Assembly (NCBI GenBank): GCA_018062205.1
Contig: JAGOSP010000006.1
Location: 1-52,282 of the forward strand
Length of the DNA: 52,282 nt
Direction of reading: 5' to 3'
From: Candidatus Moraniibacteriota bacterium
Lineage (GTDB): Bacteria; Patescibacteriota; Minisyncoccia; Moranbacterales; UBA1568
Part shown: piece after piece, positions 46,632 to 52,282 of the stretch
How positions within the stretch are numbered: position 1 is the first letter of the stretch
Layout of the letters: each line of letters starts with the position of its first letter
The notes under the pieces: generated by a model
What the model was told of the DNA's origin: nothing
Seen by the model: only the letters and a program-made list of their open reading frames with translations
The model's database searches: none
Position numbers and translations under genes: made by a program

Positions 46632-46859
46632 ATGAAAACAAGACCAATCAAACGGATGTATCGTAGTAGAACAGACAAAGTATTTGCGGGAGTGTGTGCT
46701 GGTTTGGGGGAGTACTTCGTGATTGACTAGGTGATTCTTCGATTGCTGTGGACTTTTGTGACGGTGTTTACCGTGTTTGCACCTGGTATCTTGGTATGTA
46801 TCTTCGCGGTCTTCATCATACCGGTGAAACCTCTGGAATCACCGGTGCTGCATCAGTAA
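46632..46859 (+). pseudogene. PspC-domain protein interrupted by in-frame TAG
   Basis: The first 32 codons give a PspC start (RMYRSRTDKVFAGVCAGLGE, then YFVID) and then TAG at 46728-46730. The same frame continues with VILRLLWTFVTVFTVFAPGI and a hydrophobic end to TAA at 46857. This is the normal second half of a PspC domain (compare DPVLLRLLW). One base change would restore the gene. It is either a fresh nonsense mutation or a read-through stop; other genes here stop normally at TAG. Confidence 0.75.
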
Positions 46860-46864
46860 TATAT

Positions 46865-47047
46865 ATGTACATGACGAGTGTGGAAAAAGTGAAAGTCGAA
46901 AATTATGTTTTTTCGGGAGGAGTGTGGATGGCGGCATGGATTTTTACAATTGGATTTTTGCAGCTCTCCTTCTGGTAGGGAGTATGGGCGGTGGTTATCT
47001 GGCCATACTATCTTGGAGTAGTTTTGCGTCCGTTCTTGTTTGAGTAA
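46865..47047 (+). pseudogene. Small membrane protein interrupted by in-frame TAG
   Basis: Frame from ATG 46865: MYMTSVEKVKVENYVFSGGV, a TM helix, then FLQLSFW and TAG at 46976-46978. It continues in the same frame with GVWAVVIWPYYLGVVLRPFL to TAA at 47045. The two parts make one plausible two-helix protein; a CAG (Gln) codon at the stop would be natural. This is the second adjacent gene with a single in-frame TAG. Confidence 0.6.
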
Positions 47048-47083: not shown

Positions 47084-47332
47084 ATGTCAAGTACGAAGAA
47101 AAGTTGCGAAAGTTGTCTGATGCCTTTGGATAAGGAGCATGGTCAGACCAATCGAGAAGATGATCGGTATTGTAGCTATTGCTTTCGTGATGGCAAACTC
47201 TGTTATGAGGGGAATGATCTGAAAGAGTTTCAGCGAAAGGCGTACGAAGGGATGATCGAGCATGGGACTGGGAAACTTCAGGCGAAATTTTTTACTTTCC
47301 TGATTCGCTTTGCCCCGCGTTGGAAGAAGTAG
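47084..47332 (+). CDS. Putative zinc ribbon domain protein
   Basis: The 82-residue protein matches the zinc-ribbon family of PF12674 type: CESCLMPLDKEHG, then RYCSYCFRDGKLCYEG, with four metal-binding Cys. The second half is a helical region (EFQRKAYEGMIEHG) ending in basic residues. Such proteins are small and of unknown role. The 3' 124 bases of the gene are copied at 49532. No SD. Confidence 0.85.
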   Translation: MSSTKKSCESCLMPLDKEHGQTNREDDRYCSYCFRDGKLCYEGNDLKEFQRKAYEGMIEHGTGKLQAKFFTFLIRFAPRWKK

Positions 47333-49531: not shown

Positions 49532-49655
49532 TATGAGGGGAATGATCTGAAAGAGTTTCAGCGAAAGGCGTACGAAGGGATGATCGAGCATGGGACTGGG
49601 AAACTTCAGGCGAAATTTTTTACTTTCCTGATTCGCTTTGCTCCGCGCTGGAAGA
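49532..49655 (+). pseudogene. Truncated second copy of the zinc-ribbon gene (3' part)
   Basis: About 124 bases repeat 47204-47327 with two differences, encoding YEGNDLKEFQRKAYEGMIEH and the following residues but without the zinc-binding half. The copy lies at the 5' edge of the aspartoacylase-like gene on the opposite strand. It marks a local duplication spanning 2.3 kb. Confidence 0.9.
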
Positions 49656-51070: not shown

Positions 51071-51685
51071 ATGAATATCGAATACGAAGCGACATTCGCG
51101 GCGGTGGAAAAAGACGTGATACGAAAGAAACTTCTGGAGGCCGGAGCCGTCTTGGTGCGACCGGAATTTTTGCAGAAACGAGTGGTGTTTCGCATGCCAG
51201 TTGGACATGAGATTCCCGGTGGTTGGGTGCGAGTGCGTGATGAGGGAGACAAGATTACGATGAGTCTCAAGGTGATTGATGGCAGCCATATCGAAAATCA
51301 AAAAGAGATTTTTTTAACTGTCAGCAATTTTGAGGAGGCGATTCATTTTTTGCTCGCGCTCGGATGTACCGAGAAATCATATCAGGAGACACGGCATGAA
51401 ATCTGGACACTCGACGATACAGAAGTGACGATTGATGAGCGGCCATTTCTCGAACCCTTTGTTGAAATTGAGGGGCAGTCCGAAGATCTGGTTCGTTCGG
51501 TATCTCTGAAGCTTGGATCTGATTATACTCAGGCGATATTTGGCGCAGTCGATGTGTTGTATATTGGGCAGTATCCGCATCTCACGGCAGAGCGCATCAA
51601 TAATCAGACACCACTGATTGTCTTTTTAGGAGAGAATCCATTATGCCACTATCTTATTGGATCAAGGTCCAAGGAAGCGTTTTAA
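51071..51685 (+). CDS. CYTH-domain protein (class IV adenylate cyclase/ThTPase-like)
   Basis: The 204-residue protein begins MNIEYEATF, a form of the ExExK motif of the CYTH fold, and continues with GWVRVRDEGDKITMSLK and EVTIDERPFLEPFVEIEG. These acidic and basic residues line the tunnel that binds triphosphates and metals. Members cleave thiamine triphosphate, inorganic triphosphate, or make cAMP; which applies here cannot be told. It is coupled to the exonuclease gene upstream. Confidence 0.88.
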   Translation: MNIEYEATFAAVEKDVIRKKLLEAGAVLVRPEFLQKRVVFRMPVGHEIPGGWVRVRDEGDKITMSLKVIDGSHIENQKEIFLTVSNFEEAIHFLLALGCTEKSYQETRHEIWTLDDTEVTIDERPFLEPFVEIEGQSEDLVRSVSLKLGSDYTQAIFGAVDVLYIGQYPHLTAERINNQTPLIVFLGENPLCHYLIGSRSKEAF

Positions 51686-51990
51686 CATAAAGCTCGATCC
51701 TGTTGTGCCTGTAGTATCCAAGCAAAGCTCATCATAGAACAGCGTAGTAATACGGCTGGTGGTGAGTAGGGATCTTTTTTGATCCCCTCCGGGGTGTCTT
51801 CTGGCATCCCTCCCGGTGTGGCGTGGTCTGTCTCGTCCGATGCTCGTCGGCAGTTTGGGGCGCGTGAAGGGCGGCCAGCAGTGTCAAGGCCCGCGGTTTG
51901 TTCGATGTAATCACCTGGCTTTATCAGCTTCCTTGGCTGCTCGAACAGAAAGTTCTTTCCCAACACAAGTGTATTCAGGAGGAGAAGAGG
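51686..51990 (+). other. Leader region of the reverse transcriptase with hairpins, possible ncRNA
   Basis: The 305 bases hold no convincing gene. Visible pairings: GGGATC/GATCCC around TTTTTT (51769-51786), CCCC/GGGG just after, TGTTCGA (51899-51905) with TCGAACA (51941-51947) enclosing CAGC/GCTG (51925-51939), and ACAC/GTGT near 51964 before the SD. Retron RTs are preceded by an msr-msd RNA at this position, so this region is the place to look; no msr-msd was proven. A minus-strand frame covering it has no start signals. Confidence 0.45.
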
Positions 51991-52282
51991 ATGAATCAAA
52001 GCGCGAGTATTTCTCCGGTTGTCCTGGATTTAGGATATCTCGGTGGTAAACCAGAGATGTCTTTCTATTGGAAGGAGGTTCGTGGCAAGCGTCGTTTGAT
52101 TGGAAAGCCCAACAAACCCATGCGTGCTCTTCACCAGAATTTTGAACAGTCTATCCGACGTGCACTCTGGGCATGTGGTGACCAAGGTCGGGAGATTCTG
52201 AGATTTTGGTCGGCGACTGGCTGTGTGAAAGGGTCAAATTCTCAAAAGAACGCGCTTCGACATCGTTTGGGGCGTTTTTTTT
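51991..52282 (+). CDS. Reverse transcriptase, N-terminal part, cut by the window edge
   Basis: The open frame runs to the end of the window (97 codons). It contains GKRRLIGKPNKPMRALHQNF, matching the start of bacterial RT domains (basic strand then P-x-x-x-L-x-x-x-Q). TGCVKGSNSQKNALRHRLGR matches the G-x-x-x-G-x-S-x-x-x-N-A-x-x-H motif 2 just before the first catalytic Asp block, which lies outside. The SD AGGAGGAG (51977-51984) is six bases from the ATG. Motif wording fits retron or related RTs better than diversity-generating RTs, but the class needs the rest of the gene. Confidence 0.75.
   Translation, partial: MNQSASISPVVLDLGYLGGKPEMSFYWKEVRGKRRLIGKPNKPMRALHQNFEQSIRRALWACGDQGREILRFWSATGCVKGSNSQKNALRHRLGRFF

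Follow-up and report, generated by a model that had tools for sequence, protein, structure and literature searches.

Which kind of reverse transcriptase (RT) is encoded at the very end of this stretch of DNA, and what is the long leader in front of its gene? The window, by which we mean the whole stretch analysed, is contig C24 (52,282 bases) of a 966 kb genome in 24 contigs. A preliminary description of the window had noted a truncated RT gene with a structured leader in the place where retrons carry their msr-msd RNA. We consider it very probable that the window RT is a retron RT provided with its own RNA, and the element is best read as a retron of no named type that stands alone and belongs to a lineage of Patescibacteria. 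The retron interpretation is supported by the YxDD block on contig C9 of the same genome, by the position of the RT among retron RTs and by the presence of inverted ends.

The upstream CYTH gene stops at 51685 and the RT frame begins with ATG at 51991, leaving a leader of 305 bases, and the frame stays open up to 52282, i.e. to the end of contig C24; the truncated gene and its leader are therefore as previously described. The features of the gene are:

51977 to 51982, plus strand: Shine-Dalgarno site AGGAGG of the RT gene, read directly, 8 bases upstream of the ATG
51991 to 52282, plus strand: N-terminal 97 codons of the RT gene, retron-type (ORF; in-frame continuation; junction alignment with the L115 RT)
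contig C9, 33341 down to 32577, minus strand: remainder of the RT gene, giving a joined product of 350 residues

By sequence, the other half of the RT gene lies at the end of contig C9. This assignment is based on a shared run of T, the same frame, synteny with a congener and end-to-end identity with an intact homologue. A search with the RT family detected three places in the genome (C18:18-494, C9:32889-33125 and C18:3399-3668). The piece on C9 extends to the contig end and begins with TTTTTTTACATC, and the window terminates in eight T (a T8/T7 overlap); with eight T at the junction, the frame is continuous (...RLGRFFYITDIKDAYPG...). The joined RT aligns end-to-end with the intact RT of locus L115, with 141 of 350 residues identical (40%) and no break across the junction. 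In the congener G007, a DEDDh gene (68% identical) is located 1.5 kb before the same cold-shock gene, so that its gene order agrees with the C24-C9 join. Another genome of the genus, G009, retains the last 31 RT residues (74% identical) in frame at a contig end, where they precede the same cold-shock gene and the genes following it. The YxDD block, which the preliminary description expected downstream, is absent from the window and present as YVDD on C9. Its remarks on ribosome binding also hold: the RT has a consensus Shine-Dalgarno site, and most other genes of the window lack one, with a 4-base match in 6 of 37 other ORFs as opposed to 13% of random 15-mers. Such matches precede 12 of 16 RTs of the clade defined below, compared with 9 of 64 neighbouring ORFs (15 loci) and the 6 of 37 ORFs in the window, an excess that may partly reflect how starts were chosen, RT starts in the clade loci having been set partly by judgement.

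The genome contains a second RT (L001, C18:1-683), which is cut by the contig start and is of the DGR type, grouping with the BPP-1 and Photobacterium DGR RTs (100/98). A 129-base piece of this DGR RT recurs at C18:3517-3645 (93%; within L003, C18:3399-3668), where it is joined to a copy of window positions 46722-46883 (97%). In the window itself, 47204-47327 and 49532-49655 form a direct duplication of 124 bases, 98% identical, in different gene contexts. This duplication and the case on C18 suggest scattered short duplications or assembly chimaeras.

Relatives of the RT were collected with a profile (A2), which matched 174 stretches of genome contigs; 132 of these encode relatives, and 80 loci were kept. 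The same profile detected six distant loci in viral contigs; searching with the query protein alone gave no match in either genome or viral contigs. As the clade, we took the 14 best loci and L130 (15 loci, or 16 with the window), leaving out a Neomarinimicrobiota RT (L129). Thirteen of the 15 relatives are titled as Patescibacteria groups, and the other two (L119 and L122) are titled bacterium only.

By its sequence, the window RT is a retron-class RT. Its best NCBIfam match is the retron St85 RT (9e-22), with a score of 77.7 bits far under the cut-off of 235, so that no named retron type fits it. In PADLOC, 54 families were matched at E<=1, and the best 25 of these 54 are all retron RT models. 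Fifteen sequences of the PDB were matched, twelve of them named retron proteins; the remaining three (9kjx, 9n69 and 8bgj) are named RNA-directed DNA polymerase, although the titles of 9kjx and 9n69 identify these two as retron entries. Matches on plasmids are named retron or unspecific RT. In a maximum-likelihood tree of 39 RTs, in which the bootstrap had not fully settled and the query occupies a long branch, the query grouped with five Patescibacteria RTs (98/93) inside the retron group, which stood apart from group II and DGR RTs (100/98). A second maximum-likelihood tree of 41 rows, including the closer L115, paired the query with L115 at 100/99, again set the retron group apart (99/100) and united the 16 clade members as one group with moderate support (87/78). 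The classification by phylogeny proposed in the preliminary description thus places the RT with retron RTs, not with group II or DGR RTs. As the joined query protein is not on one DNA piece, the structure was modelled for the L115 RT instead (AlphaFold, 13-row alignment, mean pLDDT 79.9). The first 14 Foldseek matches of this model are retron RTs. In VIA-align, retron RTs take the first 12 places (Z 19.4-21.2), and G2L4 and group II RTs score 18-19; the predicted structure sets retron RTs only weakly apart from group II RTs.

The region X motif NAXXH is present in the query RT as NALRH (residues 87-91) and is followed by YVDD. According to the available part of PMC6868368, NAXXH, located between motifs 2 and 3, is shared by 14 of the 16 retron RTs that have been validated and is absent in group II and DGR RTs, and the available part of PMC4244168 gives frequencies of 59% for NAXXH and 47% for VTG in its set of retron and retron-like RTs. 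The region Y triplet VTG, typical but not obligatory, is absent from the query RT, which reads VFMTQVG in the alignment with L115; L115 has VTKVG, and in the majority of the remaining clade members the triplet is ING or ITG.

Other identities of the RT were rejected. As for a group II intron RT, the group II RT/maturase family TIGR04416 gave no NCBIfam match to the query RT at E<=1 (2.7e-30 for the other RT of the genome), and the group II RTs are separate in both trees. As for a DGR RT, the query is separate from the BPP-1 and Photobacterium DGR RTs in both trees.

The RT could also belong to another defence system in which it is protein-primed and the leader serves as scaffold or template RNA, as in some DRT systems. 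Non-coding RNAs in front of the RT are also known from DRT systems, a DRT2 RT is among the structural matches of the L115 model, and both the missing VTG triplet and the lack of an effector (see below) would agree with such a system. Nevertheless, we regard it as improbable: no DRT or UG model is among the best 25 of 54 PADLOC matches, the Drt2 match of the query RT in NCBIfam reaches no better than 4.6e-4, NAXXH is present, and several relatives carry retron-type terminal arms.

Known retrons restrain a toxic effector, as stated in the available part of PMC12548924. The preliminary description proposed to look for an effector gene downstream; none was recognised next to the window RT, either among ORFs or in profile scans of the genes on the window side. 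Retrons usually have such a third component, and its apparent absence counts against the retron reading; an effector would lie at another place in the genome, or these retrons have another role. The ORF maps of the 15 loci revealed no recurring gene beside the RT. When 95 ORFs from the clade loci were compared all-against-all, neighbours were shared in seven pairs; these are ordinary genes, which we take to include infB, trpS and uvrB, and by a rough estimate their number is about what chance gives. Neighbouring tRNAs were found in 6 of the 15 loci. The relatives are mostly solitary RT genes, and an RT without a partner gene is the normal case in this clade.

It is quite unlikely that the element is a three-part retron with the CYTH protein (triphosphate or cyclic-nucleotide enzyme fold) as effector, possibly together with the DEDDh exonuclease. 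Such a unit would be consistent with the position of the CYTH gene (51071-51685), which lies directly upstream on the same strand and overlaps the 5' arm of the predicted RNA with its last codons, and with the fact that CYTH is missing from the other three genomes of the genus. However, a tblastn search of the 15 clade loci, extending about 3 kb to either side, detected no homologue of CYTH or of DEDDh, the corresponding G007 site has DEDDh with neither CYTH nor RT, and CYTH gave no match in PADLOC. Moreover, CYTH is present in 14 of 142 genomes of the class, and among the other 13 an RT match occurs only in G142, on a different contig. DEDDh and CYTH were accordingly rejected as conserved partners of the RT, given their absence near the 15 relatives and the presence of DEDDh without RT in G007; the preliminary description had allowed that they were part of the same unit or unrelated, and for the former there is no sign. 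Matches of the best CYTH homologues stop at 192-196 of 204; the residues beyond this point, whose codons overlap the 5' arm, are unmatched in those homologues. This tail would fit an arrival of the retron at the 3' end of the CYTH gene.

The clade is rare. Five of 379 genomes of the phylum match at E<=1e-30, one of which (G572) falls outside the clade in the tree, and among the 128 genomes of the order, matches at 1e-15 were obtained only in the own genome, G013, G755 and G750. This patchy occurrence, along with the absence of the RT at the G007 site, could indicate a decayed or non-functional retron retained by chance, which we find decidedly unlikely: the query and its 15 relatives alike have an open frame and an intact catalytic motif, the ribosome binding site is strong, and the C-terminus is kept in frame in G009 of the same genus at 74% identity. 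In two clade members, the RT is fused in frame to another domain, namely to a DnaG zinc ribbon in L123:2959-4206 (2e-24) and to a YaaA domain in L128:2842-4764 (4.7e-63). Two further Patescibacteria RTs (L043:4080-5660 and L042:7126-8913) have long C-terminal parts which presumably resemble serine proteases; they are perhaps relatives of RT-protease retrons.

If the RT is a retron RT, its RNA should be sought in front of the gene. Retron RNA genes have complementary ends of about 8-30 bases and lie upstream of the RT, according to the available part of PMC6868368, and in the window such ends comprise 10 + 7 nested pairs. The predicted RNA and the parts of it discussed here are:

51669 to 51936, plus strand: predicted retron RNA (msr-msd), about 268 bases (terminal arms; fold z -2.82 for 51665-51940; homology with the L115 leader)
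51669 to 51678, plus strand: 5' arm (a1) CCAAGGAAGC, the longest perfect inverted repeat in 51600-52060
51687 to 51693, plus strand: inner helix strand ATAAAGC, nested within the arms and pairing with 51918-51924
51702 to 51710, plus strand: block GTTGTGCCT, common to the L115 leader, in the same order
51720 to 51726, plus strand: block AAGCAAA, common to the L115 leader, in the same order
51743 to 51750, plus strand: block CGTAGTAA, common to the L115 leader, in the same order
51887 to 51898, plus strand: block AGGCCCGCGGTT, common to the L115 leader, in the same order
51918 to 51924, plus strand: inner helix strand GCTTTAT, nested within the arms and pairing with 51687-51693
51927 to 51936, plus strand: 3' arm (a2) GCTTCCTTGG, perfect complement of a1 (inverted-repeat search, 51600-52060)

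The inverted a1/a2-type ends for which the preliminary description suggested a search are thus present (51669-51678 and 51927-51936). Its placing of an msr-msd RNA in the leader was right in that a retron-like RNA is predicted there; this RNA does not coincide with the 305-base gap but spans about 51669-51936, starting within the CYTH gene and ending 54 bases upstream of the RT start. With the 5' arm sought from -440 to -150 and the 3' arm from -110 to +5 relative to the start codon, the perfect run of 10 bases had a p of 0.0185-0.02 in dinucleotide shuffles. The chain of 17 formed by the 10 + 7 nested pairs, a measure defined only once the arm pair had been seen, was reached in 0 of 2000 dinucleotide shuffles, and none of 36 other ORFs of the window, taken as control, reached a run of 10 or a chain of 17. 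An ungapped helix score admitting G-U pairs and mismatches gave p about 0.3 for the window arms. A test based on duplex energy showed nothing for the window (z 0.10), and 3 of the 36 control ORFs had z <= -2; this test is uninformative because it sums scattered pairs over whole segments, and the perfect-run test was used instead. The exact leader (51686-51990) did not exceed shuffles in fold energy (z -0.84, 21/100), and the stretch 51665-51940, whose boundaries were picked after the arms were known, folded better than shuffles (z -2.82, 2/200). The several hairpins reported earlier do not of themselves exceed chance, since the exact leader folds no better than its shuffles; the pair of terminal arms enclosing the leader does. 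No retron family of Rfam was matched (two matches, SNORD11 and rsmX, were at chance level), and no promoter-like site was found.

Comparison with other leaders of the clade provided further evidence. In a scored pairwise alignment, the leaders of the window and L115 are similar (z 4.15, 0 of 1000 shuffles), their RTs being 40% identical, and seven other leaders showed no similarity to that of the window (z -1.6 to 0.9). A MAFFT alignment of the whole window and L115 leaders was discarded, as its untrimmed version misaligns the arms; leader homology rests on the scored pairwise alignment. The 5' arms of both end in AGC, followed by G. A perfect arm run at p<0.05 was found in 7 of 16 loci (window, L115, L116, L117, L121, L124 and L126), with the other 9 falling short of this threshold, and an arm chain at p<0.05 in 6 of 16 (window, L116, L122, L124, L126 and L127); L121 and L124 are near-copies and do not count as independent. 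In the leaders of these two, which are 90% identical, 6 of 62 predicted pairs differ in both partners, and the terminal helix contains three of these six. Clearer perfect terminal arms are found outside the clade, upstream of the Patescibacteria retron-like RTs L037:4206-5159 (16 bases) and L081:3403-4437 (15 bases). The leader could also be a plain cis-regulatory 5' UTR, with the RT working on some other RNA; this would suit the fold energy of the exact leader but is highly improbable in view of the retron-like position and arms, the blocks common with L115 and the compensatory changes in L121/L124.

The priming sites listed for retrons in the available part of PMC6868368 are TAGC, CAGA, CAGC, GAGC and ACGC. 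The inner end of the 5' arm is GAGC in L115 and CAGC in L130, so both fit this list, and that of the window, AAGC, is not among the listed sites and fits nearly. We propose the G at 51677, within this AAGC, as the priming guanosine.

Under the retron reading, the transcription of the element, its priming base, its DNA product and its function are inferred as follows. A transcript running from the 3' end of the CYTH gene through the RT gene would fold, with 51669-51678 pairing with 51927-51936, and the RT, translated from the AGGAGG-led ORF, would bind the folded RNA. The RT would then prime on the 2'-OH of a guanosine where the 5' arm ends on its inner side, putatively 51677, and, with the RNA preceding the 3' arm as template, synthesise a short single-stranded DNA that remains bound to RT and RNA. 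The resulting RT-RNA-DNA particle may serve as a decoy or as a sensor; by comparison with known retrons, its role would most likely be in defence against phages, with an effector that would be encoded elsewhere or be absent.

Among known systems, the retron Ec78/St85 and Ec67 families share the retron RT fold and motifs and provide the best profile, sequence and structure matches. They differ in that the window RT scores 77.7 bits against the 235 of St85, and in that no PtuAB, Toprim or other effector was recognised beside it or fused to it. The myxobacterial retrons (Mx162, Sa163 and Mx65) are not known to have an effector. They belong to another phylum and RT lineage, and the RNA described here has its own sequence blocks. 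Their priming site is CAGC or GAGC, the sequences found where the 5' arm ends on its inner side in L130 and L115, respectively, and they are vertically inherited and near-universal in myxobacteria according to the available part of PMC6868368, in contrast to the patchy distribution seen here. Retron-Bth1 is likewise a lone retron RT outside the 13 types; in the available part of PMC12548924, however, the two untyped cases are retrons disrupted by intervening genes, whereas in the present clade partner absence is the rule. For clade members L115, L121 and L126, the PADLOC profiles RT_outgroup and RT_other rank with the better matches, yet the scores (54-91 bits) are no higher than those for several typed retrons. 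In the open PMC literature, we recognised no paper on retrons of Patescibacteria/CPR; the main retron surveys, Mestre 2020 and Khan 2024, lie outside that scope, and an earlier listing is possible. To our knowledge, few defence systems have been studied in Patescibacteria.

We put forward tentatively, and with somewhat more doubt than confidence, that there is a solitary retron lineage specific to Patescibacteria, consisting of RT and RNA in genomes of about 1 Mb, with an occasional fused YaaA domain or DnaG zinc ribbon, and using its single-stranded DNA for defence or DNA maintenance in these ultra-small bacteria, with no toxic effector of the usual kind. The YaaA domain and the zinc ribbon fused to RTs suggest effectors that are not named for any retron type covered by the libraries searched. 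If true, retrons would form a lineage of their own in Patescibacteria, in very small genomes and mostly without an effector gene. These RT-RNA pairs would be new and compact ones for the production of single-stranded DNA in cells, and the question of what a retron does without a toxin would become testable.
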